From Daphnia carinata (lineage: Eukaryota; Arthropoda; Branchiopoda; Diplostraca; Daphniidae): a DNA stretch of 64,000 bases. Numbering within the stretch: the stretch's first letter is position 1; each line of letters begins with the position of its first letter. The stretch lies in NCBI RefSeq assembly GCF_022539665.2, contig NC_081332.1:6042303-6106302 (forward strand), written 5' to 3'. The notes under the pieces were generated by a model. It saw only the letters and a program-made list of their open reading frames with translations, was not told the DNA's origin and searched no databases. The position numbers and the translations under genes were made by a program. Below are positions 3,514 to 40,354 of this stretch, in pieces.

Positions 3514-4734
3514 ATGAAAATTTTTGGGATTGAGTACGCCCCGCTATTAGTTCCTCTCGAACGAAGAAGACAAACATGGGCTGTTTTCGTTTGGATCGGC
3601 TCTTTTTTTTTTATGGGGCCAGCAGCTCTTCTAGGATTTTTGTACCTGTTCTTCTTCACACGTTTCTACTTTGTCCCTTTATTCTATGTGGCCTGGTATG
3701 TAGCTGACATTAAAACACCTGAATGTGGGGGAAGAAGGTAATTGTTTAAATAACCTATATCAGTCAAAAATAATGAAAATCATCTTTTATGTTGGTGTTT
3801 TTTCATAGGTGGAATTGGGTACGAAGATGGTCTTTATGGAAAGACTATGCATCCTATTTCCCAGTAACACTGGTGAAAGAAGCTGATTTAGATCCAAAAT
3901 TCAATTATTTTATTGGCTCTCACCCTCATGGAATCCTGTGCTCTGGTGCCTTTTGCAACTTTGCTACAGAAGGAACAAATGTTTCTAAAGTCTATCCAGG
4001 AATTACCTTCTCATTAACAACATTGAACTGCCAGTTTGTAATGCCCTTCTACAGAGAATTTTTCATGACAAGTGGAGCTGTTTCTGCTTCCAGAAGGAGC
4101 ATCGATCATATCTTAGGGAGTAGTCCTGGAGGCAATGCTGTCATATTGGTGGTTGGGGGAGCACCAGAATCACTTGATACTCATCCCAATGTTGATGATG
4201 TCACCTTAATTCTAAAACCAAGAAAGGGATTTATTCGTTTGGCTCTTAAGCATGGGTTAGCACTGATGATAAACTTAGCTATAAAATTACTCTATGGCAA
4301 TTTTAATTGTGTAGGGCTCATTTAGTACCATCTTTTTCTTTTGGTGAAAATGAAGTGTATGATCAAGTTGACAATCCTCGTGGTTCAAAGTTAAGAAGTT
4401 TTCAAGATTACCTCCAGAAAATGATTGGACTAGCACCAGTTTTGATAAAGGGGAGAGGCATATTTCAGTACTCATTTGGTATCATTCCATACCGTAGACC
4501 AATCACTACAGTTGGTAAATAAATATTGATAAAATCATTTTTTTATCACATCTCAATTAAATTTAAATTATTTCAGTTGGTAAACCAATATTTGTGGAGA
4601 GGACAGGCAATCCTAGTGATGAGCAAGTTAATGAGTTACACTCAAAATATATTGATGAGCTTGTTGCCCTTTTTGAGCGACACAAGCATAAATACTACCC
4701 ACCAAGAGAACATATCAAGTTGAAAATTCTCTAA
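3514..4734 (+). CDS. DGAT2: Diacylglycerol/monoacylglycerol O-acyltransferase 2 family
   Basis: Acyl-CoA-dependent acyltransferase of the DGAT2/MOGAT family, which makes triacylglycerol at the ER and lipid droplets. Four exons join in phase: 3514-3737, 3809-4255, 4315-4514 and 4577-4734, giving 342 residues, normal for the family. An N-terminal hydrophobic hairpin (about residues 20-65) precedes the catalytic HPHG motif (GSHPHGILC in exon 2). Further family motifs are [35 protein letters not shown] and PITTVVGKPI. The C-terminus is hydrophilic. All splice junctions use GT/AG and no lesion is seen. DGAT2 and MOGAT2 cannot be separated by eye, so the symbol is at family level. Confidence 0.93.
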
Positions 4735-9242: not shown

Positions 9243-11080
9243 ATGCCACTAACACAGAAAACTAATGCTTTCGTAATAGCTTGGATGTTTTTCGTGCTGG
9301 TGCAGTTCCTTCCCAACCAAGCGCTCGAAACTGTAAGTTGAATGTTGTATTGATTCAATTGTCGTTTATGTTCCTCTTTAAAAATAATAACTTCACTAGA
9401 ACCTCTGCACGTTAAACACGATTGTAAAGAACACGTTGTGTTTTAACGTTTTTGAGCATAATAATTCTCTGCTGAAAATGTGTGCACGGTTTTCTTCATT
9501 GCCCATTAAAGAGAGAAATCCGCCAGTGCAGTAATATCGTCTTATCCCAGATTTTGTAGACTACCATATTTAAAACTTTAATTGTAGACCAAAGGTTTTT
9601 CCCACTCGAGCTCGCTTCAAAGATCATCCCTAAAAATATTAAGGATTTTAATGCATTTAGTGGTAACGAAAGGTCATTCGGAAAAAAAAAAAAAAAAAAA
9701 ACTGTAGAACGTTCTGTCAGAACATCCGAAAATAGAGATGGATGTTGTTTGAACACTATTGGTCAAAAAATGACAACATTTCTATGCAAACTTCGATGGA
9801 TTACACGACAGTGGCAGCCATTTTCTCGACTCCTGTAAAAAAAAAAAAAAATTCTAGAACGTTTTGTGCAGAACATCTAAACGAAAATAGAGATAAGGGG
9901 CAATGTTGCGTGATATCTATTGGTCAAGTCTTTTAAGGCAATGACAGAACAAAAATCATTTCCCCGTTTGACAGGTAAAAAAAAAACACATAGAAATTTT
10001 TTTTTGGTAATTTTAAATTGTAGAAACGATAAAAATTTTTTTTTTTTTGCATTTTCCTCTTTTCACAAATAGTGTCGTAGAGATGCGGAGTGCACGACAC
10101 CAGGTACCTACTGCCTAGGTGGATTTTGCGATGGCCACTGCATCCCGTGCCATCAGTTCCTGCGCAATCCTCCTTATTCCGGTGATTGCGCTAAACGGGA
10201 AGAAGATTGCGGGACATGTGTTCCTGGGTATTCGCTTCAATTTACATCGCTCTGTGCAGACGTTACTAATTGACCTTGTTTCTTTTCGGATCAGGACTGT
10301 TGCGGAGGAGCTGGTAGGGATGCGGCACGCCTTCCGATGTAAAAAAGCTGAAGATCCTATTCCCTACCCGAAGCCGGCTTTTACGGTACCCGAATGGCGC
10401 ACTTTGACGTTTAGCGTTGTTGGCTTGACAGTGGTGTTGGCATTGGTCGCCGTGGGCACCTTCCTCAAGCACAAAGGCATTGGTGGTCAAAGCAAACAAA
10501 TTCATGTGGCGTCTCAAATATATTATCAACTAAATCATCCGTTAAAAATGAATTTTTAGTTTTCCGCCATCGGCAGACGTCTGGAACGTCTCTTACCACT
10601 CCAAATAATTCAACTGGAGTGTTAGATGAGGCGGAACAGCCCTTAACGTCAGGCGTCCCGCCGAATGAAGAACGACGTTTGGAGAGGGAGAGAAATGTCA
10701 AAGCCCAGCCAATAGACGATCCAGTCTCTACCAATTCGATGGAGAATTTGGAGCTTTCTGCTCCCCCATTTCCTTCCGATGTACCATCCATTCCAGACGG
10801 AAGCGCAAACAACAACGTATTAGCTGGTGGTACGTACGATGGGGTTACCATAGAACTTTCCGGCTATCGAAACGGGAATCAAACGGAATCCACTGCACCT
10901 TCGGCCACTTTGCCAATTTCCAATGCTGTCCCTGTTGCCATCGAAATGGAACCGGATGGATCGGATAATGAATCGGGGGAAGATACCAAGGAAAGCTGCT
11001 ACGAGCAGTTCAACTTTGGCTTTTTCTTTAAAGCTGAAAGAGTAAGCACAAGGACAGCAGGATGCGCTAATAATAACTAA
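9243..11080 (+). CDS. Cysteine-rich single-pass receptor-like protein, long cytoplasmic tail
   Basis: Not assigned to a known family. Four exons join in phase: 9243-9332, 10073-10227, 10295-10482 and 10560-11080, giving 317 residues. Exon 1 is a signal peptide. Exon 2 encodes an extracellular module with about ten cysteines (CRRDAECTTPGTYC, DGHCIPCHQF, CGTCVPG). Exon 3 holds a last cysteine (HAFRCKK) and one membrane helix near residues 100-125 (FSVVGLTVVLALVAVGTFL). Exon 4 is a roughly 170-residue acidic, Ser/Pro-rich cytoplasmic tail. The layout resembles small TNF-receptor-like proteins of invertebrates, but that is inference. A paralogue lies at 39504-40354, and relics of the exon 4 tail recur at 13239-13463, 35037-35246 and about 40381-40640. 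The gene converges on the first pseudokinase-caspase copy. The exon 3-4 junction uses a weak GTGGTC donor and is the least certain part. Confidence 0.72.
9661..9935. repeat. Imperfect tandem duplication with poly-A tracts in intron 1
   Basis: Two copies about 150 bp apart share a long A tract followed by GTAGAACGTTCTGTCAGAAC (near 9704) or a diverged version (near 9854), then AATAGAGAT and a TATTGGTCAA box. The GAAnnTTC arrangement resembles a heat-shock element, but it may be chance. Confidence 0.5.
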
Positions 11081-11514: not shown

Positions 11515-13234
11515 TTAAGGCGAAGTGGATTCTTCTACAAGAGTGGTATGATTAAAGAAGAAATTGTTTCGTTCTGTGAGTCGGCGATTGCTGAATACAC
11601 TGCCGTTATCTGTTGCATCGCTATCAGTTAAGACGATCTGGTTGCTGCGTCTGAACACGATGTATTTCCTGAGGTAGGTTTCGCACGAAATCGTTTGCCT
11701 ATATTCTTTGTTTTGTATCTTGTTGTTCATGATGGGTTGGACACCGTCTGCTCCTCTCAACATCCCCTCCAGGTCCCGAATGGGGCTTTCATCAGGTAAC
11801 AAGCCATCACACGCACTGCTTAAATATTCTTCTTCCATTTTCTGACACAAGGTTTGAATGAAATAGGTTCCTTGTATCGCATCAGAAAGGTGACACGAGA
11901 ATATATTTAGAAATGATTGATTCTATTATTCATGAGAATCTATATAACACTTACCAATGCAAGCATTCCTTAAGGAAACGAATCCCGGAATAGTTGATTT
12001 AATGGTCATGAAATCCATAATAGATGGATTACGATTGAGCTTGTCTTCTTCGACGTTGAAGGATTTAAAGCAATTGGATATATATTTGATGGCAGCGGAT
12101 GCAGGACTCAGCAGCACGGTGGATTCTTTGTTTCCTTCGGCACTGTCTATAAAAAGAAATTAAAAAATATATATATATTTTTATCCTACATACATCAGCA
12201 AAGTTAAATTTTAGCTACGATAAATTGCATTTGCGTCGTTAACTGCACTACGATGAGTAGAGAAAATGCTGATCCTGGGAACGCTAGTGGTACGACCTGT
12301 GTTTGGCTCTGTTCCAGATCTCCTTGGCACGCTTGGACGATGAAGATTTTTGGTTTGCCGTACAGGGTCGGACAAAAGTTATAAAAAAACTTGTACTTGT
12401 GCTTGTTAATGTTGACTTAATGTCCGTCAAAGCCGGCAATAGCGTTCACCATGCCGTAGGACAAGAGGCAAACAACTAGGCAGTCATATTTCGAGAAATT
12501 TCTAGCTGCCAGGTTTTTCATTTCGCCTTCGATATCATACGACATCAAATCGTGGTGAACGACAACATCAAAACCCAATTTCAAGAAAATGCGTGTTAAG
12601 CTTGTCCAATCATGTTCGCTTCCAGCTCGATGTGAGAGCTATGGTAAAAAAAAATTAGATCCATTGTCGTCAAAAAAATTTATCCACATCGTCTGTTCCA
12701 GTCAAGATGTAGTAATAGAAACAGCCGAGAAGAAACACATCCAAGGACTGATGAAGGGGCTGATTCTTGCGCCGGCTCTCCGAGGATTCCCAACCTTCCG
12801 ACGCCACAGTTCCAGACAAGTCCTTATCAGGATCAAGCATTCTACTCAACCGAAAATCTGTTATTTTGATTGCGTAACGAGCCGGGCCATTGCCCGGCTG
12901 TATTTCCTTCACAAGGAAACTGCTCGACTTTACGTTACGATGGACAAAATGATTTTGATGAAGGTAGTCAAGTCCTCTGGTTGCCTGGAACAAGATTCCT
13001 TTTATCGTTAGGGATGATAAAATGGCCGTTTTCAACGGATCATTTACGGGCTTTCGTTCAAAGATATCAGTAATAGAGCATAAGCAGAGCTCTGTCGCAA
13101 TATACCTATGTAACAAATTGGGGTTTACCATCAGCAATAGAAATAAATGAAACGTATTTGCCTTACACGAAATCGTTTTTTTCATCCGTTTCATAGCTGA
13201 AATAGCGAATAAAGTTTTCGTGAATATCCAATTA
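11515..13234 (-). pseudogene. Pseudokinase-caspase fusion, copy 1, truncated and inactivated
   Basis: Degenerate relative of the intact gene at 36021-38774. It starts inside the kinase N-lobe near 13234 (ENFIRYFSYETDE), so exons 1, 2 and most of 3 are missing. The C-lobe runs to about 12670 (VHRNVKSSS, ITDFRLSRM, LDVFLLGCFYYY) and then jumps into A-rich sequence. The kinase tail and first caspase strand are deleted, about 0.3-0.5 kb. The caspase exon (about 12270-12635) has TCC TAC GGC where intact copies have Ser-His-Gly, so the catalytic His is Tyr. A TAA follows shortly after (near 12418-12420). QACQG is still present. The splice donor after the caspase p20 exon has changed from GTATT to CATT. 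Exons 6 (11955-12146) and 7 (11515-11870) remain open. Five independent lesions make a functional protein very unlikely. Confidence 0.85.
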
Positions 13235-13238
13235 GTTA

Positions 13239-13463
13239 TTGGTTTCCAATTATATCCAATTGGTTACCATAGAACTTGGTGACTATCGAGACGGGAATCA
13301 AACGGAATCCATTGCACCTTGGGCCACTTTGCCAACTTCCAATGCTGTCCCGATTGCCATCGAAATGGATCCGGATGGATCGGATAATGACTCGGGGGAA
13401 GATACCGAGGAAAGCTGCTACGAGCAGATCGATTTTGGCTTTTTTTTAAAGCTAAAAGAGTAA
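13239..13463 (+). pseudogene. Relic of the receptor-like cytoplasmic tail
   Basis: The frame at 13262-13462 matches the last 70 residues of the receptor-like gene ending at 11080 (NQTESIAPWATLP, DGSDNDSGEDTEES, SCYEQIDFGFF). It has no signal, cysteine or membrane exons upstream. It abuts the broken end of copy 1, so it marks a duplication breakpoint rather than a gene. Confidence 0.75.
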
Positions 13464-15049: not shown

Positions 15050-17609
15050 TTAAGGCGAACCGGATTCTTTTATAGGGGCGCTATGGTTAACGAAGAAATT
15101 GTTCCGTTCTGTGAATCGGCGATTGCTGGATTCACTGTCATTATCTTTTGCATCGTCATCGGTTTTGACGTGTTTCTCGAACACGATGTATTTCCTTAGG
15201 TAGGTTTCACACGAAATCGTTTGTCTTTTTTCTGTGTTCTGTAACTTTTTGTTCATGATGGATTGGACACCGTCGTCTCCTCTCAATATTCCCTCCAAGT
15301 CCCGAATGCCATCATACGCCCTGGTTAAATATACTTCTTCCATTTTCTGACACAAGGCTTGAATGAAATAGGTTCCTTATATCGCGTCAGAAAGATAACA
15401 CGAGAATATATTTTAAAATGGTTTAGAAATGTTCAATTCGATAATTGCGTGGGACACAACTATATAACACTTACCAGTATAGGTATTCCGAAAGGAAACG
15501 AATCCCGGAATAGTTGATGTGATGGTCATAAAATCCATAATAGGTGGATTCCCATTGAGCTTGTCTTCGTTGACGTTGATGGATTGAAAGCAATGGGACA
15601 TATATTTGATAGCAGCGGATGCAGGACTCAGTTGCACGGTGGATTCTTTGTTTTCTTCGGCATTGTCAATAAAAAAGAAATTAAAAAATATATATATTTT
15701 TTATCCTATGTACATCACCCGAGTTAAATGTTAGCTACGACAAATTGCATTTGCGTCGTTAACTGCACTACGATGTGTAGAGAACATACCTGATCCTGGG
15801 GAGACTGGTGGTACGATCCCTGTTTGACTCTGTTTCAGTTCTCCTTGGCACGCTTGAATGATGAAAATTTTTGGTTTGCCGTACAGGCTAGGGCAACGCT
15901 CATAACGAAACTTGTACTTGAGTTTGTTAGTGTTGGCGTAAAATCCGTCAGAGCCGGCAATAGCGTTCTCTACGCCGTGGGACAAAAGACAAACAACTAG
16001 GCAGCCATAGTCCGAGAAGTCTTTCTTTGCCAGGTTTTTCATTTGGTGTTTGATACCGAGCGACATTAAATTGTGATGACGATCGTCAACTTCAAAACCT
16101 AATTTCTTGAAAATGTCTTTTAACCTTGCCCCATCACGGTCAGTTGCAAGCCGGCGTTGAGGCTATGGTTTTAAAAAGATTAGGTGTTTGAATTCGTTCA
16201 TTAGGTTTATTTATCAAAAATGAAAATGAATTGTGAAAGACCAATACCTCTACGTTGGCGAAATACTCCTGATTAAATATAACACAAAGACCTGGCTTAT
16301 TAGAATCGTATATCGGATAGTGTTCCTTCATAGGTGGCCGGAAATATTTATGATCGAGGACTTCCGATAGGCTTAGTCGCTGGTTTTCATCGAACTTGAT
16401 CATCTGCTTGATCAAAGCTATCGCATTTTCATTCTTTACGCCTGATGGCTTCCATTCTGCGTTGTAAACAAAGTAATCCAAATCGTTAATGTTCGTGGTA
16501 CGTCTGAGTTTATCATCACTGAACGGATGAGATGGACTGGGATTCTCGTCGCCTGTTCCAGTCAAGACGTAGTGATAGAAACAACCGAGAATAAACACGT
16601 CCAAGGACTGATCAACTTCCTGATCCGTGCGTTGGCTTTCCGGGGCCACCCACTCATCCGAGGCAATAGTTCCAGACCAACACTTGCCTGGAACAATCAT
16701 TCTGCTCAACCGAAAATCTGTTATCTTGATTGCGTAACCAACAATGTGTTTGCCCGACAGTATTTCCTTCACAAGGAAACTGCTCGGCTTTACGTTACGA
16801 TGGACAAAATGATTTTGATGAAGGTAGGCAAGTCCCCTAGTTGCCTGTAACAAGATTCCTTTCGCCGTTAGCGATTTTAAAACAGTTTTTTTCAACGAAT
16901 CTTTTTCTTTTCGTTCAAAGATGTCAGCAATAGAGCACAAGCACAGCTCTGTCGCTATATACCTATGTAAGAAATTGGGATTTACCATCAGCAATAGCAA
17001 TAAATCAAACGTATTTGCCTTACACGAAATTGTCTAATTCATCCGTTTCGTAGCTGAAATAGCGAATAAAATTTTCATGTACATCCAATTTTCGTAGAAT
17101 ACGTTTTTCACGTTTAATTTCAGTTTCCAAATCGGGTTTTATTTCTATTTTTTCGATGGCTACTAGAATTTTTTTTCATAAAAACCTTGGAAAATTTGTC
17201 GTTGAATGGGCGATGCTTCTTTTGGGGAGTTCAAAACTGTTTTGGGTTCGCATCTCTGGGATGTTGTATCCTTCGGCAACGACTTGCAGTCGTAGCTCAG
17301 TTTACCACCATTTCGTACCCAAGTTCTATCTGTAAACTCCACCGTTTTGGGACGTACGTGTTATGTATTATTAGCAATGTAATTTAGTATAGTGCGTTTG
17401 GTAATTGGGCTGGCCTACCTTTGTACGTATCACTTTTGGAAACGATTTCATTAGGAAGAATTCTGACCTCTGTGACACCCAGGGATGGATCTTTCTGAAT
17501 CGCCAGCCGAATTTGGCTAAACGTTGAAGTTCACGCCAAGTGCGTACAGCATTAAAATAGAATCGCAAATTTTATAGGCTCCATTTGCCTCTTAATGTAT
17601 ACCTGGAAA

Positions 17610-20244
17610 CAGACCTGCCGTCCGATTATTTCTTGAGCGATTATCGGTAGCCGTCGATAATCGCAAAAAAAATGATCGGCGATCATTTGTCTGTTGAAAA
17701 AATTTGATCGGCGATTAAATTTCTTTGATTGTTTTTCCGATTATTTTTGATCGCCATCTAGCAGTAAGAAAATAACTTGCCATTGTTAAAATTGAAAAAA
17801 TTGAAACAAGTAGACATTTCAAAAACAACATGGTCTCCGCGAGTTGACTCGACCGTTCGGGTTGTAAGAGGCACAAAATTCCTGCGTTTTGATTGGCTCT
17901 CCAGCTCTGATGCCAGTGGCAACCACCACTGAAAGAAAGCAAGCTGTTGATGTGTCGTCTGCTTGTGCCGTCTGCCTGTCGTCTGCATCGATTTTAATTT
18001 TCAAAATAATTCAATTTTCAAATAACAAAATTACTAATCAAAAATCATAAAACGTTCCTAATATCAACACTGACATCTTTTACCACAACCCCTTGGACTC
18101 GACGGTAAGCAATTTTTTTGTTTTTAGTGAGCCATGATAATGTAAGTAGTTGTAAAAATAATGTAAGACTGTGAATATTTGAATATGAAAATAAACCAAA
18201 TGAAAAAGCTTTTCTTTTCTTTTTGTATTATAATAACGATATACCTATACCATAAGACAAACTTGGAATCGTAAAACTGTTTTTAAACTTTTTTTACGTT
18301 GACCATAATGGAAATTTGAAAAATGCCGCCTAAAAATAATGGCATCCGTTTTCTCTACTGTGATTGGTTGCTCGTAATTTAGTATTTCTTTAACTAATTC
18401 GATAAATTTTTGTTGTTTAATGGCCACCAAAACATTCCTCGTGACACAAGGAAGCTAGATATTACCTTTATAACATATAATAAGCCTAAAGAATGCCTTA
18501 ACGAAGGGCCCAAAGTTTTCGGTTTTTCATAGTTTCCCCTCCTCTCATACACCGTCCAAAAATTAAATATTTATTAATGGACAAACTATTGGTCTGAAAT
18601 GAATTATTTTAATTTCAATGAATAGCTCTTAGTATGAGCTTTCTACTTCTGTAACATTAAAAGTAGGATTCCCGTAATCAAAAAATTTCTGGAACGAAAG
18701 ATTTTTTGTCGTTTTATCGTTTGGGTCCATTACATCTTTGGATCGCAAAACTTTGCAAAATAAAATTTTTTATATTTTTTTGTCATGGAAATATTGCATT
18801 AAGTTTTACGAAAATCGAAAGCCCTTACAATGGGCTATTCACTGCAATTAGAATTATTTTAGACCAATAGTTTGTCCATTAATAAATATTTAATTTTTGG
18901 ACGGTGTATGGGAGGAGGGGAAACTATGAAAAACCGAAAACTTTGGGCCCTTCGTTAAGGCAACAAACTATTGGTCTAAAATAATTCTAATTGCAGTGAA
19001 TAGCCCATTGTAAGGGCTTTCGATTTTCGTAAAACTTAATGCAATATTTCCATGACAAAAAAATATAAAAAATTTTATTTTGCAAAGTTTTGCGATCCAA
19101 AGATGTAATGGACCCAAACGATAAAACGACAAAAAATCTTTCGTTCCAGAAATTTTTTGATTACGGGAATCCTACTTTTAATGTTACAGAAGTAGAAAGC
19201 TCATACTAAGAGCTATTCATTGAAATTAAAATAATTCATTTCAGACCAATAGTTTGTCCATTAATAAATATTTAATTTTTGGACGGTGTATGAGAGGAGG
19301 GGAAACTATGAAAAACCGAAAACTTTGGGCCCTTCGTTAAGGCATTCTTTAGGCTTATTATATGTTATAAAGGTAATATCTAGCTTCCTTGTGTCACGAG
19401 GAATGTTTTGGTGGCCATTAAACAACAAAAATTTATCGAATTAGTTAAAGAAATACTAAATTACGAGCAACCAATCACAGTAGAGAAAACGGATGCCATT
19501 ATTTTTAGGCGGCATTTTTCAAATTTCCATTATGGTCAACGTAAAAAAAGTTTAAAAACAGTTTTACGATTCCAAGTTTGTCTTATGGTATAGGTATATC
19601 GTTATTATAATACAAAAAGAAAAGAAAAGCTTTTTCATTTGGTTTATTTTCATATTCAAATATTCACAGTCTTACATTATTTTTACAACTACTTACATTA
19701 TCATGGCTCACTAAAAACAAAAAAATTGCTTACCGTCGAGTCCAAGGGGTTGTGGTAAAAGATGTCAGTGTTGATATTAGGAACGTTTTATGATTTTTGA
19801 TTAGTAATTTTGTTATTTGAAAATTGAATTATTTTGAAAATTAAAATCGATGCAGACGACAGGCAGACGGCACAAGCAGACGACACATCAACAGCTTGCT
19901 TTCTTTCAGTGGTGGTTGCCACTGGCATCAGAGCTGGAGAGCCAATCAAAACGCAGGAATTTTGTGCCTCTTACAACCCGAACGGTCGAGTCAACTCGCG
20001 GAGACCATGTTGTTCAAAAAAGCGTCTGCTAAAAAAGTGACACAGCTATGAGTAGACTTTCATATAGTCTCATCTACCGTTCATAGATGTCGCTAAATAA
20101 TCGAAAAATAATCGCGATTAAAAATTAATTCTTTTCCACTTTAATCGCCGATTGCGATTGTTTTAAAATAATTTGATCGCCGATTAAAATTTTAATCGAA
20201 ATCGCAATCGCGATTAATTTTCAATCGCGATTACGGCAGGTCTG
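17610..20244. mobile_element. Non-autonomous hAT-like foldback element with 8-bp target-site duplication
   Basis: The 2635-bp element starts CAGACCTGCCGT and ends ACGGCAGGTCTG, a perfect 12-bp terminal inverted repeat. It is flanked by the same octamer, CCTGGAAA, at 17602-17609 and 20245-20252. An 8-bp duplication and CAG-type ends are hallmarks of the hAT superfamily. Almost the whole element is a palindrome about an axis near 18919: arms of about 1.27 kb and a loop of about 85 bp. Identical 61-residue frames occur at 18245-18430 (minus) and 19408-19593 (plus). The ends carry clustered GCGATTA/TAATCGC motifs. There is no transposase, so mobility would depend on a partner. Empty sites exist in the sister copies (38560-38580, 34475-34495), which proves insertion. 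Confidence 0.9.
18495..19343. repeat. Nested inverted-repeat element inside the hAT-like palindrome
   Basis: A smaller element, 18495-18961, begins GCCTTAACGAAGGGCCCAAA and ends with its reverse complement, with TIRs of roughly 110 bp. A mirrored, partial second copy fills 18962-19343. This suggests that a MITE inserted first and the larger palindrome formed later by inverted duplication. Confidence 0.75.
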
Positions 20245-20445
20245 CCTGGAAACATGATCGTGGCTGTTAGGAGAAACTCGGATTTCACTATAAGTTGCCT
20301 CATTTTGCTCCGGTAATCCGTCCTCGGCCAGTCGAGCGCTGGATGAACCATCACCACCCATTTCCTTATTATTACCTAGTACCAGGTTCCATAAGAATGG
20401 AACATTCGAAGATGGACCAATATTAACTAACAGGGAAAAAGACAT

Positions 20446-20935
20446 TTTGCCCAGCTTTCGCCAAATACTGAAACAATAAAGTAGTTGCGCGGTGGTTGAA
20501 GAAACTCTAAAGCAAATGAGCTTATCATAGCGTTCATAGAGATAGCACGTGATAAAACGATTTAATTTCCGGTCTTATCTCAAGTGTGAAGAAATAATGT
20601 GGTGATACAAGTAGCTCGAAAAACAGTCAGCAAAGCTAAATAACAATTCAAAATTTTAATTGCATACAAACGAGGGCATGAAAGAAAATGTAATGAACTA
20701 AATTTTTCGCTTGTGTTTCCAACTATCGAAACAGCAAGCCAATCTAGATTTCTATTCAGTATATTAAATGTTACTACATAAGCCACACAGTAAAAACAAA
20801 ATGTAAAACTTAATTCTAGTGCTACACGATGGATATTTCACGTTTGTTCTGATATGCTCCAAGTTAATCCAACCCGCGGTTATGTAACGTGCAGTGTAGT
20901 TCATAATTACTGTATTGTAAATTGCTATTTGACGC
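20446..20935. other. 5' flank of copy 2
   Basis: Non-coding sequence matching the 5' flanks of the other copies (compare 34690-35000 and 38775-39050), including a CTTATCATAGCGTCCATGGA-type block. Probable promoter region of the duplicated gene. Confidence 0.5.
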
Positions 20936-21211
20936 TTAATGCTTCGCACTATTGATGTGATTTAGCTCTCCGAATCGCCTCTCGAATTTTGCTAAACGTT
21001 TAAATTCAAGCCAAGTGCATAGAGCATCAAAATATAGCCTATTTAAAAGACTTAATTTGCTTCTTATATACCTGTAAACATCATTGTTGGTGTTAAGAGA
21101 AATCCTGATTTGACAAGAAGTTGGCTCATCTTGCTCTGGTAATCCGTCTTCAGCCAGTCCAGCACTGGATGAACCATCACCACCATTTTCCTGACGATTA
21201 TCTGGTTTCAT
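20936..21211 (-). pseudogene. Orphan duplicate of pseudokinase-caspase exons 1 and 2
   Basis: Exon 1 (21072-21211, MKPDNRQENGGDGSSS) is almost identical to the first exon of the copy at 31988-34621. Exon 2 starts at 20991 with the same SKIREAI sequence, but after AKS it runs into unrelated sequence and a stop. No kinase or caspase exons follow. It is a truncated segmental duplicate lying between the copy 2 promoter and the 6.6-kb inverted-repeat element. Confidence 0.75.
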
Positions 21212-23359
21212 TTTAGTTCCCTAAGATTGAAACACTCGAAGATGGGCTAATATCAACTAACAGTGAAAGTGATAGTTTGCCTAACTATCGCTAAGTAATG
21301 CAACAAGAAAATGGTTGCGCGGTCATTGAAAAAAAAAAACACTAAAGCGAATGAGCTTATCATAGCGTCCATGGAGATAGCGCGGAAATAAAACGGATTT
21401 TAAATATCTGGTCTTATCACAAGTGTGACGAAATAATTGTGGTGATGCAAGGGAGGTCGGAGAAAAAGGCCCAGACGAAAAAGGCCCAGACGAAAAAGGC
21501 CCGCGAAAAAGGCCCAGACGAAAAAGGCCCATACAAAAAAGGCCCACTTTATTCCAAATTTTAAAGTGGGCCTTTTTCTCCATTAAACTGGGCCTTTTTC
21601 TCCGCTTAATTTCCATGTTCCTAAATCTTTATTGAGTTTCCAAAAAGTATTTCCCACTTCCTATTCCGTGGAAGTTGGAATATATAAAGGTTGCTGAAAC
21701 CGTGACCATCTATAAGGTTTGTCCATATGAAACAATGTTAGCGTATATACGCTAGTTAATCTTTGATTATTTATTATGTAGCTATCGGATTTCGGATTAT
21801 GTTAGTATTTATCTATTGCTAATATCCCGTTAAATAAAGTTCATTTTTCACAATTTTTGTTTATTGAACTACTTTAGCTTCTTTAAATATAATATAAGAA
21901 TTATAAGTTTTCCGCACTTAGCCTTGTTCTGTCCACCCTCTTTGATCATTCCCCCACCTCTAAATCCATCTTCATTATAACTTCTCTTTGTCGATACTTA
22001 TTCCATAGGTTAAGACCACTGATTTGTTATGAATACGGAAACTGAATGAGTTCCGCGGGGCTTTTGTGGTTGCTGGGAACAAAGATATGTTAATACGAAG
22101 ACTAGTTCATTATTATTAACATTTGATAAATAATTTTTTGAGGAAGAACACTACAAGCTTAAACTATCGTTTGCGATAAGGACAAAAAGAAAGAATATTG
22201 TAATTCAATATTGATTTTCATACCATTTATTTCCTTATCACATTTTCAATTTTTTTCACGATTACAAAGAGCCCAATAAATATATTAAAATCATAACCTA
22301 CTGCTATAAATATGCCAGGCCTTTTACTGCTAACTGTTGTCTTGGAGCGCTTTTCAGCAAAACTATAAATAGTTCTAGCATAACTGGAATATTTAATTTG
22401 CATAAGAACGTCTATGAGTCAAACTTAAATAGTAATGGCTTTTGGTAAAGAGCAGTCTTTTGTTAAAGAGTAACCTCACCTTTAGTTCGAGAGAACCATA
22501 TACGTCTCTGGTGAGAACTCGCGTTTTCAAGCAATGATAAATAATTTTTTACGTTCTTCGTGTCTTGTTTTCCCCTTATGCACATATTCCAGCTGCTATT
22601 GTTTACCTAATTCACATCATATACTACAATGAACAATAAGGAAGCCTTGCACCTGAAGTTGACAAAGCTATTAACAAGTACAAATCAATTTTAATTATTT
22701 TCTACCATGAAAGACTGTTTTTATGAGTCTGCTATAGTGAAGACACTAAACAATTAAAAATGAATCTAAGATTTTTTTCTTCAAATTTTCCAAAATCATG
22801 AAAGGCATGCCAGTGTATTTTTCTAAAAGACTGTCGCGCCATGGTTTGCACATGAAAGAACACGAGTTTAGCTCATCTATGAGTCTGTATCATTATTTCA
22901 TACGATAAATTTTCCTTTTTTTGATTTGGTTTAATCACTGTATGTTCTTTTTTTTCAGTTTCTTTTTCTTAATGTTGGCTTTTCTCTTTTTCTGTTGTCA
23001 TTCCTTTCTCTTTTTCTGTTGTCATTCCTTTCTCTTTTCCTTTTCTTCGTTGCGATCAGCCCAATTTATTTTATTTTCTGATTTGATTTTACCTCGTTTC
23101 TTTATTTATTTGCCAAGGAATTCCACACAGTCTTCTACCTATTGCAATACAGAAACGTTAGAAGTTTTGAACACCTTACAAATATGTTTGTCAAATTGAT
23201 AGTTTACCTGAAAACCTTCAGCTATGTGTAGAGCACCATTGCAAGCCTGTTTTTCTTCCATGCTTCTGGATTCTCACCTTCAGCTTGGCCTACCAAGATT
23301 TTCACTTTTTGTTTAAGTATTTTTTTTTTCATTTTAATCGTTGCCAATTATGGATCTAA

Positions 23360-31987: not shown

Positions 31988-34621
31988 CTACCGAGCGCTA
32001 TTGTTAACGAAGAAATTGTTTCGTTCTGCGAGTCGGCGATTGCTGGATTCACTGTCGTTATCTTTTGCATCGTCATCAGTAAAGACTATCTGGTTGCTGC
32101 GCCTGAACACGATGTATTTCCTGAGGTAGGTTTCGCACGAAATCGTTTGCCTATATTCTTTGTTCTGTATCTTGTTGTTCATGGTGGACTGAACACCGTT
32201 CTCTCCTCTCAAAATCCCCTCCAGGTCCCGAATGTTCTTGTCATCCGGCAACAAGCCATCACACGCACTGATTAAATACTCTTCTTCCATTTTCTGACAC
32301 AAGGCTTGAATGAAATAGGTTCCTTGTATCGCGTCAGAAATAAGACACGAGAATATATATAGGAATGATTGATTCTATCATTCATGAGAATCATCTATAT
32401 AACACTTACCAGTACAAGCATTCCGTAACGAAACGAACCCCGGAATAGTTGATTTGATGGTCATAAAATCCATGATAGGTGGATTCCGATTGAGCTTGTC
32501 TTCTGTGACGTTGAAGGATTTAAAGCAATTTGATATGTATTTGATGACAGCGGATGCAGGACTCAGCAGCACGGTGGATTCTTTGTTTCCTTCTGCACTG
32601 TCTATAAATAATAAATAAATATATATTGTTATCCTAAATACATCACTAGATTTAAATACTAGCTACGACAAATTGCATTCCCGTCCTTAACTGTATTACG
32701 ATGAATATGCAAAATACCTGATCCTGGGAAGGTTAATGGTACGACCTGTGTTTGACTCTGTTCCAGATCTCCTTGGCAAGCTTGTACGATGAAGATTTTT
32801 GGTTTGCCGTACAGGCTCGGACAAAAGTTATAAGAAAACTTGTACTTGAGCTTGTTAATGTTGACGTAATGCCCGTCAAAGCCGGCAATAGCGTTCTCTA
32901 TGCCGTGGGACAAGAGGCAAACGACTAGGCAGCCATATTGCGAGAAATCTCTAGCTGCCAGTTTTTCCATTTCGCCTTTGATATCATACGACATTAAATC
33001 GTGATGAACGACAACATCAAAACCCAATTTCAAGAAAATGCATTTTAAGTTTGTCCAATCATGTTCACTTCCAGCCCGATGTGGAAGCTATGGTAAAAAA
33101 AAATTAGATATTTTAAATTCGTCGTTCAAGATGAAAGTGAATTATGAAAGGCCAATTTATTTACCGCGGAGAAATATTCCTGGTTAAAAATAACACAAAG
33201 GCCTGGCTTATTAGAATCGTATATCGGATAGTGTTCCTTGAGTGGTGGTCGAAAATATTCATGGTCGAGTACTTGCGAAAGGCTTGGCCGCTGTTTTTCA
33301 TCGAACTGGATCATTTGCTTCATCAAAGCTATAGCAGTTTCATTCTGTAGTCCTGATGGCTGCCATTTTTCTTTGTACACAAAGTATTTCGAATTGCGAA
33401 TGTTCATGAGGCGTGCGCCTTCACCATCACCAAACGGATGGGTCGGCCTGGCATCCCCATCGTCTGTTCCAGTCAAGATGTAGTAATAGAAACAGCCGAG
33501 AATAAACACATCCAAGGACTGATGAAGTGGCTGATTCTTGCGTCGGCTCTCCGGGGATTCCCACCCTTCCGACGCAACAGTTCCAGACAAATCCTTATCC
33601 GGATCAAGCATTCTGCTCAACCGGAAATCTGTTATTTTGATTGCGTAACGAATCGAGCCATTGCCCGACCGGACTTCCTTCACAAGGAAACTGCTCGGCT
33701 TTACGTTACGATGGACAAAATGATTTTGATGAAGGTAGTCAAGTCCCCTGGTTGCCTGGAATAAGATTCCTTTTACCGTTAGGGATGATAAAATGGCCGT
33801 TTTCAACGGAACATTTACGGACTTTTGTTCAAAGATATCAGCAATAGAGCACAAGCACAGCTCTGTGGCAATATACCTATGTAAGAAATTGGGGTTTACC
33901 ATCAGCAATAGAAATAAAAGAAACGTATTTGCCTTACACAAAATCGTTTGTTTCATCCGTTTCATAGCAGAAATAGCGAATAAAGTTTTCGTGAATATTC
34001 AATTCACGTAGAATACGAAATTCACGTTCAATTTTAGACAACAAATCTTCCCTGATTAGTTTTTTCTCGATGGCTACTGGAATGTCGTACTCGTGAAAAC
34101 CTTGGAAAATTCGACGTCGATTGGACGATGTTTGTCTTGGAGAGTTCAAAAATATTTTGGGCTCGCACTTCCGGAGTCCTTCATTGTTCACCAACCACTT
34201 GCAGTCGTAGCTCAGTTTGCCACGATTTCGTACCCAAGCTCTACCTGTAAACTCCACCATTTTGGGACGTACGTATTATGTATTATTAGCAATGTAATGT
34301 CGTATTGTCTGTTAGTTAATTGGGGTGACCTACCTTTAAACCTATCACTTTTGGAAACCACACCCAGTGATTTAGCTCTCCGAATCGCCTCTCGAATTTT
34401 GCTAAACGTTTAAGTTCACACCAAGTGCATAGAGCATCAAAATATAGCCTATTTAAAAGACTTAATTTGCTTCTTATATACCTGTAAACATCATTGTTGG
34501 TGTTAAGAGAAATCCTGATTTGACAAGAAGTTGGCTCATCTTGCTCTGGTAATCCGTCTTCAGCCAGTCCAGCACTGGATGAACCATCACCACCATTTTC
34601 CTGACGATTATCTGGTTTCAT
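31988..34621 (-). CDS. Pseudokinase-caspase fusion protein, copy 3 (intact)
   Basis: Seven exons join in phase: 34482-34621, 34334-34401, 33938-34244, 33165-33876, 32718-33087, 32410-32601 and 31988-32322, giving 707 residues. Order: acidic N-terminus (about 1-70), IRE1-like pseudokinase (about 105-400), caspase p20 and p10 (about 400-675), Ser/Asn-rich tail. Kinase signs: EYDIPVAIEKK (lysine position is Glu), YIATELCLCS, FVHRNVKPSS (HRD to HRN), ITDFRLSRM (DFG to DFR), LDVFILGCFYYYILTG. Caspase signs: NKPGLCVIFNQEYF, LPHRAGSEHDW, CLLSHGIENA, FIVQACQGD, PGFVSLRNA, YFIQALCQKM. The catalytic His and Cys are both present. An upstream ATG (about 34690) matching the start in the sister gene runs into a stop after 20 codons, so translation must begin at 34621. 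I infer cytosolic location, as no signal peptide or membrane helix is seen. Confidence 0.85.
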
Positions 34622-36020
34622 TTTAGTTCCCTAAGATTGAAACACTCGAAGATGGGCTGATATTAACTAACAGCGACAGAGACATTTTGCTAAACTATCG
34701 CTAAGTAATGCAACAAGAAAATGATTGAGCGGTCATTGAAAAAACTCTAAAGCGAATGAGCTTATCACAGCGTCCATGGAGATAGCGCGGAAATAAAACG
34801 GATTTTAAATATCTGGTCTTATCACAAGTGTGACGAAATAATTGTGGTGATGCAAGTAGTTTGAAATGTAGCTCGCAAAGCAAAATAACAATTCAAAATG
34901 TTTAATTGCATACAACTAGGGCATAAAAGAAAATGTAATGAACCGAGTTTTTCGCTTGTGTTTCCAACTATCGAAACGGCAAGCCAATCTATATTTTCTG
35001 TTCTTACGTTTCGCTGAAAGCTTCATGTTTTCTTAAATGACCGACGATAAAATGATTTTGAAAAAACAAGAAATTGAAGTTAGGAATCAAATGGAACAAA
35101 TATCCATTGTATCTTTGCCCACTTTGCCGGCTTTCGATTGTGTCCCTCTTGGTATCGAAATGGAACGCCGGATGGATCGGATAATGGATCGTAGGAAGAT
35201 ACTGGGGAAAGGTGCCACGAGCAGATCAACTTTAGGTTTCTTTTGAAATTAAAAAGAGCAATCACGAGGACAGCAGGGATGCGCTAATAATATTTTGCGA
35301 CAGTACTAATTTCTAAACAGCAGGCAAAGAATAAGGCTATTTATAGTCTATTAAATGTCACTACGTAACCCTCATAGTAAAAAGATAATGGAAAACATAA
35401 TTTTAGTGCTATACAATGGATATTTCACATTTGTTCTAATATGCTGCCAGTTAACCCAACCCGTTGTTATTTAACGTGCATTGTAGTTCACAAATAGGCT
35501 ACTGTATTGCGAATTTCTATTTAATGCTTGATGCTTAGCGCTCTTGATGCATAGCATTTAACTTGAAACCGTTGTTAAGAAATTGAAACCTATTTTCAGG
35601 TGAGAAATGGGCTGTGAGTTAATCACGGGTCAAATTAAGTTTACAGATAAAAGTACTGCTGTTATGATAACGCCCAGTCGACTCACGTCACGAAAATAGA
35701 GCCGAAATTCCCAAATTAGCTGCTTTGGTGATTGCATCATCAACCGAATTGCGTATAGGTATGGCGGTCGTAATTTTGAAACATAATTTTGGTTTTCTTT
35801 AATTTGATGAATTGGGGAAAAAGACCATCACGTCTATTTGCTTCTTACTTTGCGTTCCATTTTGCCTATTTAATAAATTTCATTTCCAACAAGGTCGCTA
35901 TATCTGTCTTTATTGTTTCTCCTAGAATGTTGATGTTAAACAATAGTGTCACTACATATTTGGATAAAATTTACTTTTCAATGACAAGAATAGTTAAACT
36001 TGAATTTCAAGCGGATTCCT
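34622..36020. other. Spacer between copies 3 and 4, with receptor-tail relic
   Basis: It holds the 5' flank of copy 3 (34690-35010), a relic of the receptor tail (35037-35246) and the 3' flank of copy 4 (35490-36020), which is nearly identical to 31449-31987. Confidence 0.6.
35037..35246 (+). pseudogene. Degenerate receptor-tail relic
   Basis: DNA similarity to the exon 4 tail of the receptor-like gene (GGAATCAAA..GGAA, then ATCGAAATGGAAC..CCGGATGGATCGGATAATG) with a one-base insertion that shifts the frame. No upstream exons. Confidence 0.65.
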
Positions 36021-38774
36021 CTACCGAGCGCTATTGTTAACGAAGAAATTGTTTCGTTCTGCGAGTCGGCGATTGCTGGATTCACTGTCGTTATCTTTTG
36101 CATCGTCATCAGTAAAGACTATCTGGTTGCTGCGCCTGAACACGATGTATTTCCTGAGGTAGGTTTCGCACGAAATCGTTTGCCTATATTCTTTGTTCTG
36201 TATCTTGTTGTTCATGGTGGACTGAACACCGTTCTCTCCTCTCAAAATCCCCTCCAGGTCCCGAATGTTCTTGTCATCCGGCAACAAGCCATCACACGCA
36301 CTGATTAAATACTCTTCTTCCATTTTCTGACACAAGGCTTGAATGAAATAGGTTCCTTGTATCGCGTCAGAAAGACGACGCGATAATATATTTAGAAATA
36401 ATTTAGAAACGTTTGATTCGATTATTTCGTGAGAATCATCTATAGAACACTTACCTGTACAGGCATTCCTTAAGGAAACGAATCCCGGAATAGTTGATTT
36501 AATGGTCATAAAATCCATGATAGGTGGATTCCGATTGAGCTTGTGTTCTTTGACGTTGAAGGATTTAAAGCAATTGGACATGTATTTGATAGCAGCGGAT
36601 GCAGGACTCAGCTGCACGGTCGATTCTTTGTTTCCTTCGGCGCTGTCTATAAGTAAAAATTAAAAAAATATATATTGTTATCCTAAATACATCACCAGAT
36701 TTGAATACTAGCTACGATAAATTGCATTTCCGTCCTTAACTGTACTACAGTGAGTAGACTATGTAAAATACCTGATCCTGGGAAGGTTAGTGGTACGACC
36801 TGTGTTTGACTCTGTTCCAGATCTCCTTGGCAAGCTTGTACGATGAAAATTTTCGGTTTGCCGTACAGGCTAGGACAAAAGTTATAAGAAAACTTGTACT
36901 TGAGCTTGTTAGTGTTGACATAATGCCCGTCAAAGCCGGCAATAGCGTTCTCTATGCCGTGGGACAAGAGGCAAACAACTAGGCAGCCATATTGCGAGAA
37001 ATTTCTAGCTGCCAGTTTTGTCATCTCGCCTTTGATATCGTACGACATTAAATCGTGATGAACGTCAACATCAAAACCCAATTTCAAGAAAATGCGTTTT
37101 AAGCTTTTCCAATCATGCTCGCTTCCAGCCCGATGTGGAAGCTATGGTAAAAAAAAAATTTGATGTTTTAAAATTCGTCGTCCAAGGTGAAAATGAATTA
37201 TTAAGGACCAATGTTTTACCGTGGAGAAATATTCCTGGTTAAAAATAACGCAAAGGCCTGGCTTATTAGAATCGTATATCGGATAGTGTTCCTTGATTGG
37301 TGGCCGGAAATATTCATGATCGAGTACTTGCGATAGGCTTGGCCGCTGTTTTTCATCGAACTGGATCATTTGCTTGATCAAAGCTATCGCAGTTTCATTC
37401 GGTAGTCCTGATGGCTGCCATTTTTCTTTGTACACAAAGTATTTCGAATTGGGAATGTTCATGAGGCGTGCGCCTTCACTATTACCAAACGGATGAGATG
37501 GCGTGGCATCCACATCGTCTGTTCCAGCCAAGATGTAGTAATAGAAACAACCGAGAATAAACACATCCAAGGACTGATGAAGTGGCTGATTCTTGCGTCG
37601 GCTCTCCGGGGATTCCCACCCTTCCGATGCCACAGTTCCAGACAAGTCCTTATCAGGATCAAGCATTCTGCTCAACCGGAAATCTGTTATTTTGATTGCG
37701 TAACGAACCGAGCCACTGCCCGACTGTACTTCCTTCACAAGGAAACTGCTCGGCTTTACGTTACGATGGACAAAATGATTTTGATGAAGGTAGGCAAGTC
37801 CTCTGGTTGCCTGGAACAAGATTCCTTTGGCCGTTAGCGATGATAAAATGGCTGTTTTCAACGGAACATTTACGGATTTTTGTTCAAAGATATCAGCAAT
37901 AGAGCACAAGCACAGCTCGGTCGCAATATACCTATGTAACAAATTGGGGTTTACCATCAGCAATAGAAATAAATGAAACTTATTTGCCTTACACGAAATC
38001 GTTTCTTTCATCCGTTTCATAGCTGAAATAGCGAATAAAGTTTTCGTGACTATCCAATTCGCGTAGAATGCGAAATTCACGTTCTATTTCAGTGATCAAA
38101 TCGGCCGTCATTTCTGTTCTTTCGATGGCTACTGGAATGTCGTACTCGTGAAAACCTTGGAAAATTCGACGTCGATTGGACGATGCTTGTCTTGGAGAGT
38201 TCAAAAATATTTTGGGCTCGCACTTCCGGCATCCTTTATCGTTCGTCAACCACTTGCAGTCGTAGCTCAGTTTGCCACCATTTCGTACCCAAGCTCTACC
38301 TGTAAACTCCGTCATTACAAAAGTAGTATGTATTATTAGCAATATAATGTCGTATAGTGTGTTAGTTAATTGGGCTGGTCTACGTATAAACGTACCACTT
38401 TTGGAAACAATTTCATTGGGAAGAATTTTGAGCTCTGTCACACCCAGCGATGGATCTTGCTGAATCGCCTGCCAAATTTGGCTAAACGTTTAAGTTCACG
38501 CCAAGTGCGTACAACATCAAAATACAGAATCGCGTATTTAAAAAACTTAAGAGCTTCTTAATGTATACCTGTAAACATCGTCGTGGTTGTTAAGAGAAAT
38601 ACGGATTTCACGAGAAGTTAACTCATTTTGTTCTGGTAATCCGCCCTCGGCCAGTCCAGCGCTGGATGAACCATCCTCACTATTTTCTTCACGGTGACGG
38701 GCACCTAGTTCCAGATGCCCTAAAATTGGAACACTTGAAGATGGGCTAATATTCACTAACAGCGACAGTGACAT
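36021..38774 (-). CDS. Pseudokinase-caspase fusion protein, copy 4 (intact, longest)
   Basis: Seven exons join in phase with GT/AG borders: 38569-38774, 38384-38481, 37993-38299, 37220-37931, 36772-37141, 36455-36646 and 36021-36355, giving 739 residues. Exons 1-2 (about 1-100) encode an acidic, low-complexity region with no recognised death fold. The kinase-like domain (about 135-430) aligns collinearly with IRE1: VAIERTE, HENFIRYFSYE, YIATELCLCS, QATRGLAYLHQ, VHRNVKPSS, ITDFRLSRM, DEKQRPSLSQVLDHEYF. Catalytic Lys, HRD Asp and DFG Gly are lost and no glycine loop is visible. In IRE1 the KEN nuclease follows here; instead exon 4 runs into GLCVIFNQEYF, the first caspase strand. Exon 5 has LPHRAGSEHDW, CLLSHGIEN and QACQGD (catalytic His and Cys). 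Exons 6-7 hold GFVSLRNACTG, YFIQALCQKM and CETYLRKYIVF. S1-pocket Arg, Gln and Arg are kept. Function unknown; I infer a dimerisation-controlled protease. Confidence 0.88.
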
Positions 38775-39503
38775 TTTGCCCAGCTATCACTAAGTACTGC
38801 AACAAGAAAATAGTTCTAATGGAGATTTAAGAAACTGATTACAAATCTGAGCTTATCATCGGAACGCTGGCGTCCATGGAGATGGGGAAGCGCGCGATAA
38901 AAAGCCTTAAATTATCTTATTACAAATGTGAAGAAATGATGTGGTAATACAAGTAGCCCGAAATATAGCTCGCAAAGCTAAGTAATAATTCAAAATGTTT
39001 AGTTGCATACAAACGAGGACATAAAAGAAAATGTAATGAAGTTTTCGCTTAGGTTGCCATAGTAAAAAAAAGTGGGTCTGGTAAAAAGGGCGACGCAAAA
39101 TTTCTACACTGCCAAACAGCTGTAGGTTTTCCATTCTTGTTCTATTTACTGGAAAAATATAAGTATAAAATCCCAGGCCATAGTTGCGAGGCCCCTCTCG
39201 CCAACACATACAATGTAAGTTGCACGTAACAAATTTCAGTAAATAAGATGACTACAGTTTTACCAAAGTTATCCGACATTACATTTTGGGTTGGGTCGCT
39301 TATCATTCTATTGCGTCGCAATGTAGGATGAGTTCGTCTGATTGCATTCTCTACATACAATTTTCCACAGTGTGGCTTTCTTCTCTCTCATCTTCGCACT
39401 GACGGCGCAAAAAGTGTACTAATTTTTTAGTCTGCAGATTTCTGAGTTTCTTAACCCAAAGACACTAGTGTTTACTTTAAAGAATATCTTTATTAAAATT
39501 CAG
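38775..39503. promoter_or_regulatory. Shared 5' region between divergent pseudokinase-caspase and receptor-like genes
   Basis: 730 bp separate the two start codons, which point away from each other. The first 250 bp are shared with the 5' flanks of copies 2 and 3. No specific sites are assigned; the label reflects the head-to-head arrangement. Confidence 0.45.
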
Positions 39504-40354
39504 ATGAGGATTCCAAGCATCAAAATGATTCCAACTTCAACAATCTTGTGGGTTTGCCTTGTCGGGCTGCATTTTCACCTTGTCAGCGCTTTGCAAGAGG
39601 TAAATGTGTTGGAACTTCATTCTACATTTTAATTGGGCATTTTTTTGTGCCATAAAAATTTTAGATTTTTTTCTTGCATAAGTCTAGATTCAAGCTGAAT
39701 TCGAAATCGCCCTTAAATTCTTCTTGAATCTATTCTTAAGCTGATGTTCGTGAAATTCGTTTCGTCATGGGTCAAAAAAGACTGCGACGAAAAGAATTAG
39801 AAAAAAAGTGATTTATATTCTTGTTTTACAAAAAAAAATCATGTAACTTTTAATACTAATAGTTGTAATTATTTACTTATTGGTTGCGTTTCAAAAGTGT
39901 CAAATAGATTCCGATTGTTCTTCGCCTGATGTCTACTGCTTGGATGGCTACTGTGACGGACATTGCATCCCTTGCGAAAACTTTCTACGACAACCCCCTT
40001 ATTTAGGTGGATGTGCTAAAAATAAGGAGGACTGCGGCTCGTGTGTCCCAGGGTAAGCGTTCGACTTGCATCTCCCAATAACACCAGAAGATAACCAACT
40101 GACATCCAACAAATATTTCATTTATTTCCAGAGCTGCCCCAGAGGAGCATGTAGGATTCCAACACTCCTTTCGATGTGAAATGATACATGAGTCTGCTCC
40201 CATTGATTCTGGTATGATACCGCAATGGTTTGCTTGGACGGCTACCGGCTTGGCATCCGTCCTTTTTATATGGGTCGTCTTTAGGTGCATTCGTCGTATC
40301 CGTCGCATTCGTCGCACGAAAAAATCTAATTCAGAACAACAATTGTTACCTTAG
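39504..40354 (+). CDS. Cysteine-rich single-pass receptor-like protein, short tail
   Basis: Paralogue of the gene at 9243-11080. Three exons join in phase: 39504-39599, 39898-40052 and 40132-40354, giving 157 residues. Exon 1 is a signal peptide (MRIPSIKMIPTSTILWVC). Exon 2 carries the cysteine module with the same spacing (CQIDSDCSSPDVYC, DGHCIPCENF, CAKNKEDCGSCVPG), and exon 3 a final cysteine (HSFRCEM), a membrane helix (FAWTATGLASVLFIWVVF) and a basic tail of repeated CIRRIRRIRR. Exon lengths 1 and 2 and phases match the paralogue, supporting both models. The long acidic tail of the paralogue is absent here: a TAG stops translation, while a degenerate version of the tail persists downstream. 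It lies head to head with the intact fusion gene. Family unassigned; TNF-receptor-like is only a guess. Confidence 0.75.

Follow-up and report, generated by a model that had tools for sequence, protein, structure and literature searches.

Two intact genes in a 64,000-nucleotide stretch of Daphnia carinata DNA (the window) each encode one protein in which an IRE1-like pseudokinase is followed by a complete caspase. This kinase-caspase combination is real and common to several Daphnia species, and it is apparently undescribed so far. We favor, with a probability of about 0.55, the reading that it represents a Dredd-type caspase in which the death-effector prodomain has been replaced by an IRE1-like pseudokinase controlling activation by proximity. 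The reading builds on the observed architecture, the loss of kinase residues, the retention of caspase residues, a Dredd-like gene structure and the spread of the fusion through Daphnia.

Gene structure and fusion junction

The gene on which the analysis centers, copy B (Table 1), has GT/AG borders and agreeing phases at all of its exons, and the gene model thus bears out the single 739-residue frame in seven exons proposed by the first-pass annotation. The fusion had also been placed within a single exon, and exon 4 does pass the junction unbroken; in copies A, B and C nothing interrupts the stretch between RPSLSQVLDHEYF (RLSLSEVLDHKYF in C) and GLCVIFNQEYF. A Pfam scan of copy B, for which a 735-residue version with exon 2 ending four codons early was used, detected Pkinase at residues 164-408 (E = 2.1e-32) and Peptidase_C14 at residues 425-639 (E = 2.4e-37), in addition to the related PK_Tyr_Ser-Thr (E = 3e-16) and one further row below the cut-off. 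Pfam, the diagnostic residues and the presence of both p20 and p10 support the description of the protein as an IRE1-like pseudokinase joined to a complete caspase.

Table 1. Features of the window and of other loci in the D. carinata genome. Positions without a contig name refer to the window or, where a locus handle is given, to that locus.
Feature	Position	Strand	Remarks
Copy B gene, pseudokinase-caspase	36021..38774	(-)	7 exons, 739 aa, frame open throughout; from borders, phases, translation, Pfam
Copy B exon 1	38774-38569	(-)	
Copy B exon 2	38481-38384	(-)	
Copy B exon 3	38299-37993	(-)	Start of kinase N-lobe (VAIE, lysine lost)
Copy B exon 4	37931-37220	(-)	Remaining pseudokinase, with HRN and DFR, then first caspase strand GLCVIFN; fusion junction
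Copy B exon 5	37141-36772	(-)	Caspase p20 with R445, SHG (H502), QACQG (C545)
Copy B exon 6	36646-36455	(-)	p20/p10 linker and start of p10 (R624)
Copy B exon 7	36355-36021	(-)	Remaining p10 plus C-terminal tail; same sequence as exon 7 of copy A
Copy A, same architecture	31988..34621	(-)	7 exons, same phases as B, 707 aa
Copy C, decayed	15050..17571 (about)	(-)	Exon 3 frame broken near 17165
Copy D, decayed	11515..13263 (about)	(-)	Exon 4 end absent; SHG changed to SYG; stop inside exon 5
Stray copies of fusion exon 1 and upstream region	20221-20574, 20936-21220	(-)	
Perfect inverted repeat	17824-18875 / 18963-20014		1052 bases, 87-base spacer
Receptor-like gene	39423-40354	(+)	
Receptor-like gene	10073-11080	(+)	
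Remnants of receptor-like gene	13236-13463, 35037-35246		
Fusion loci (eight)	C1 5.81-5.83 Mb and 6.63-6.64 Mb		
Fusion loci (four)	C2		Window
Additional fusion fragment	C4		
Dredd gene L035	C3 3.459 Mb		
Ankyrin-kinase locus L040	C6 9.84 Mb		
Ankyrin-kinase locus L041	C6 9.81 Mb		
Ankyrin-kinase locus L043	C3 12.36 Mb		
L043 frame	2002-2565	(-)	HRN and DFR
Second KEN locus L039	C3 11.878 Mb; about 2959-4591	(+)	Pseudokinase-KEN (HGN, ANFE)

Copies and neighbors in the window

The protein of copy A equals, letter for letter, the NCBI D. carinata protein of LOC130686695 (P0002). This copy had been called an exact repeat of copy B, which is true of the architecture and not of the sequence, the two being 88.8% identical over 713 columns. 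At 707 residues, copy A is shorter by 32. The ATG matching the start of copy B opens a frame of only about 20 codons there, so the frame of copy A begins at an inner ATG instead. Exon 7 is the sole exon identical between the two (335 of 335 bases), and this identity, together with a 3' flank that is 97.4% identical, suggests gene conversion. Two decayed copies, C and D, lie in the same window and were absent from the first-pass finding. In copy C the AG that copies A and B use ahead of exon 6 is absent, and no exon 1 was seen in the sequence inspected up to position 17750.

Two stray copies of fusion exon 1 with its upstream region, without the remainder of the gene, are also present in the window. 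Upstream of copy C lies a perfect inverted repeat that looks like a foldback or mobile element. Beside the fusion genes, a cysteine-rich receptor-like gene (CDGHCIPC...CGxCVPG) occurs twice, along with two remnants. It is probably membrane-bound and was perhaps duplicated together with the fusion genes. A Pfam scan of this gene gave zero matches over the cut-off; from resemblance only, it could be TNF-receptor-like.

Distribution in the genome and in Daphnia

The fusion is present at 12 loci of the D. carinata genome, four of which, including the two decayed ones, are in the window. At 11 of the 12 loci a single uninterrupted segment holds both the end of the kinase and the first strand of the caspase, the exception being copy D, which is without that kinase end. 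Searches of protein databases with precomputed Pfam annotation yielded at least 24 protein clusters with both domains: at least ten in D. magna, seven in D. carinata, three in D. sinensis, and one each in D. pulex and D. galeata. The searches scored only the roughly 8000 candidates with the most words in common, which makes all counts of relatives lower bounds, and some of the clusters are partial models (P0019 and P0021 are without p10). The source names of these proteins are inconsistent and include Caspase-8, putative Caspase Dronc, ire-1 and mitogen-activated protein kinase 4.

Among the candidates scored, the nearest to copy B are P0002 (89%) and P0001 (86%), with no row reaching 90% identity. 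P0001 is an unbroken frame of 745 residues on a contig of 2381 bases; so short a contig could not accommodate the introns of the window genes, and P0001 therefore most probably derives from a transcript. P0022, P0032 and P0033 are pieces of the pseudokinase that gave no caspase match, and the remaining matches (P0024-P0029, P0034-P0045) are caspases or kinases without the fusion.

One D. sinensis model, P0003 (1194 residues), contains two tandem kinase-caspase units and probably represents two adjacent genes merged by annotation. A distant relative, P0023, is 31% identical and has lost catalytic residues in both kinase and caspase, with both folds still recognized by Pfam. A search with P0023, limited by shared words, returned itself and 25 kinases and no Daphnia fusions.

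Further caspase-domain genes of the D. carinata genome are L032, two genes in L033, L034, the Dredd gene L035 and L036, a paracaspase-like gene that has Ig-like parts. Going by motifs, which are the source of all names here other than Dredd, we take L032 and both L033 genes to be effector-like and L034 (QFCRG) to be Dronc.

The pseudokinase

HRD has become HRN in all 28 rows with data, DFG has become DFR in 27 of 28, and the β3 lysine is kept in none of 27. Judged by these residues, the kinase part of the fusions is a pseudokinase; an active kinase was ruled out on the change of the catalytic Asp of HRD to Asn and the missing β3 lysine. The closest kinase fold, by sequence as well as by structure, is that of IRE1 (tree support 80/89). 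When we checked whether profile and relative searches would put the kinase part in a different family, IRE1 scored far above the next one, and a kinase of another family was therefore rejected. RNase L is absent among the 60 chains listed in the relative search, an absence that weighs little, and NCBIfam matches were far under the cut-offs.

The KEN ribonuclease (PF06479), which was detected at two other loci of the genome, was found in none of the 24 fusion rows. We modeled the nearly pure pseudokinase P0022 (mean pLDDT 71.9, pTM 0.74), and in this predicted structure the alignment with IRE1 stops at human residues 837-838, corresponding to model residues 396-397. The caspase strand begins at residue 406, about nine residues past this point. 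In human IRE1 we take KEN to start near residue 835. The position at which the alignment ends and the lack of KEN in all 24 rows place the caspase, as modeled, where KEN would be. A model of the whole protein reached only moderate confidence (mean pLDDT 62.5), because of which the relative placement of kinase and caspase was left uninterpreted; fold searches with it returned caspases only and are uninformative on the kinase.

No membrane-span-like stretch was seen in copies A and B, P0001, P0014 or P0030, in which the highest 19-residue hydropathy is 1.52, compared with 1.75 for the control, a likely membrane span. The fusions thus seem to be without the ER anchoring of IRE1.

The caspase and its possible kinship with Dredd

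The caspase fold is complete, with both p20 and p10. Among rows with data, the catalytic His is kept in 25 of 26 and the catalytic Cys in 24 of 25, as are the arginines of the S1 pocket (R445 in 24 of 25, R624 in 22 of 22). The fusion caspase would be expected to cleave after Asp. An Asp is present in the linker in all ten rows inspected at a variable position, and since it has no fixed place we claim no processing site. The solved structures closest to the fusion caspase in sequence are those of the insect effectors Drice and Sf caspase-1.

The only Dredd_N locus found in the D. carinata genome is L035, with Dredd_N over the cut-off (E = 1.2e-17) and Dredd_2nd under it. It is a clear Dredd gene, whereas DREDD is scored 0 for Daphnia in the table of PMC4833078, within the part of that paper covered. 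With L035 as positive control, Dredd_N is missing from the 21 families to which the 24 fusion rows gave matches.

In the caspase part, the fusions and L035 share introns at three of three places (splice sites predicted): a phase 0 intron in the loop past the first strand and two phase 1 introns, one in the p20/p10 linker and the other ahead of the first p10 helix. The two shortest predicted options for the first of these in L035 are both phase 0. The comparison covered, besides L035, the genes L032 and L034 and the plus-strand one of the two L033 genes. These three have no introns in the first-strand loop, in the linker or ahead of the p10 helix. Instead, L032 and the L033 gene carry an intron at the QAC site and L034 carries one past QFCR; the fusions and L035 are uninterrupted at these sites. 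The gene structure of the caspase part points to an origin from Dredd (caspase-8).

In a caspase tree of 23 rows, the 14 fusions group together (100/99), with L035 on their side (98/96); the branch that places it there is very short (0.035), and the tree contains no caspase-8 sequence. L035 is nearest by tree path to Sf caspase-1 and Drice, has its top identity (39%) to L032, and has human caspase-7 and -3, not caspase-8, as its best solved relatives. The assignment to Dredd rested on gene structure; among the sequence results, the tree support of 98/96 favors kinship, and the short branch and the effector relatives speak against it.

Comparison with known systems

The fusions share with IRE1 (ERN1) and RNase L a kinase fold, closest to that of IRE1, and an effector domain attached straight to the C-lobe. 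They differ in that the effector is a caspase rather than KEN and in that their kinase residues are lost; moreover, IRE1 is ER-anchored, and no membrane-span-like stretch was seen in the five fusion rows inspected. With Dredd and caspase-8 they have in common a complete p20/p10, the intron places and phases of L035, and the active site QACQG, which we take to be a caspase-8 signature. Where those proteins have a prodomain (Dredd_N in Dredd), the fusions have the pseudokinase. RIPK-type and DAPK-type death kinases also place a kinase fold in a death or immune pathway. There the kinase fold is accompanied by DEATH, RHIM or ankyrin parts, and the caspases on which these kinases act are separate proteins, whereas in the fusions kinase fold and caspase are in one chain.

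The ankyrin-kinase genes L040, L041 and L043 resemble the fusions in their IRE1/RNase L-like kinase frames, but ankyrin frames adjoin the kinase instead of a caspase, and they lie outside the fusion clade. Separate ankyrin frames follow the kinase in all three and also precede it in L040 and L041. HRD and DFG are kept in L040 and in the 435-residue frame of L041, not in L043. The latter has a frame with HRN and DFR as in the fusions, yet it groups with the ankyrin kinases, which would reflect repeated loss or convergence. About 35 weaker IRE1/RNase L-like kinase rows, 20 of them on C6, make up an expanded kinase family in the genome. Canonical IRE1 is L038; the second KEN locus, L039, encodes a pseudokinase-KEN protein that forms a long branch adjoining the fusions in the kinase tree.

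Proposed mechanism

In IRE1 and RNase L, self-association of the kinase-fold scaffold joins two KEN effector domains and thereby activates them, and initiator caspases are activated by proximity. The fusion protein would be a soluble initiator-type caspase, with the pseudokinase in place of the Dredd/caspase-8 prodomain and the caspase in place of KEN. Self-association of the pseudokinase would be controlled by what it binds, be it a ligand, a partner or a nucleotide, and would bring two caspase domains together; the paired domains would then cleave after Asp. The arrangement suggests a caspase that is triggered by a pseudokinase rather than by the usual death domains. Such a mechanism would predict that the protein is an active protease, dimerizes, responds to a ligand and acts in immunity or cell death. 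The Arg of DSRDVAVKR in D. carinata IRE1, which we take to be part of the back-to-back dimer contact, is replaced by Ile in copy B and by Ile, Val or a different residue in other fusions. As this residue is not conserved, the dimer of the fusions, if any, may differ from that of IRE1.

Selection and alternative readings

A different working is possible, though we think it somewhat unlikely: the pseudokinase could be a bait or inhibitor that silences the caspase and frees it upon attack by a pathogen factor or protease, as a guard or integrated decoy, and not through dimerization. The basis for this reading is the faster change of the exon-4 piece. Among paralogues, for which dN/dS is descriptive because pairs share branches and gene conversion is likely, the median is 0.64 for the exon-4 piece (10 loci; 24 of 45 pairs usable) and 0.32 for the exon-5 piece (31 of 55 pairs usable, from the 11 loci free of a stop; copy D, with a stop, was left out). 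These rates fit a sensor part evolving faster than an enzyme part. Between copies A and B, dN/dS (NG86) is 0.36 overall (0.0538/0.1501) and reaches 0.92 in the N-terminal 140 residues, which again would suit a bait, as would the clustering of the copies and the decay of some of them. However, the same pair appears constrained elsewhere, with 0.29 in the kinase, 0.17 in caspase residues 416-628, and 0.17 and 0.21 for exons 4 and 5; no paralogue pair exceeds 1 (maxima 0.84 and 0.89). The near invariance of HRN and DFR likewise points to a retained structural or binding role.

Far less probable is a regulatory, c-FLIP-like caspase half without proteolysis in the living animal. P0023, which lacks the catalytic His and Cys, and the SYG of decayed copy D would agree with it, but P0023 is the sole row with lost caspase residues among those with data, all others keeping His, Cys and the S1 arginines, and the caspase exon is under constraint. 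Slightly more improbable still, the kinase part might phosphorylate by an unusual mechanism, with the caspase as its regulated partner: the Asp of DFG is retained in all 28 rows with data, the αC Glu in 25 of 27, and all 27 rows have a K, R or Q right after the position of the lost lysine, but the uniform loss of the HRD Asp and of the β3 lysine argues against activity. That gene prediction joined adjacent kinase and caspase genes can practically be dismissed, since, although P0003 resembles such a merger, the uninterrupted segment at 11 of 12 loci rules out a joining artefact at the junction, and the fusion recurs in five named Daphnia species and in the unbroken frame of P0001.

Significance

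The first-pass annotation regarded the architecture as a candidate for an undescribed one, and in agreement with this we found no animal kinase-caspase protein in the open-licence literature. None appears in the passages covered of PMC2685406, PMC3710099, PMC3482391, PMC4833078 and PMC8283722. The part of PMC2685406 covered reports eight caspases in D. pulex, five in clades unique to this species and two in the Dredd clade, and it omitted prodomains as too variable for alignment; the word "kinase" occurs 0 times in its main text. PMC3710099, in the part covered, lists KEN partners, and "caspase" occurs there 0 times.

If the proposed mechanism is true, the fusions would be an animal caspase that a pseudokinase controls within one chain. 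They would also be an IRE1-type scaffold that has exchanged RNA cutting for protein cutting as its output, and would provide a direct test of the IRE1/RNase L kinase folds as general proximity switches. A bolder and rather doubtful extension is that they form a fast-changing family of one-protein immune switches, in which recognition of a product of pathogens or stress by the IRE1-like pseudokinase would set off the Dredd-type caspase directly, with no need of a receptor, an adaptor or death-effector domains, in an animal without PGRP. Daphnia (D. pulex) is without PGRPs according to the part of PMC4833078 covered, and the D. carinata genome gave no Amidase_2 (PGRP-type) match. The fusions may also bear on a question raised in that same part of PMC4833078, namely how Daphnia, without PGRPs, uses the Imd/Dredd branch.
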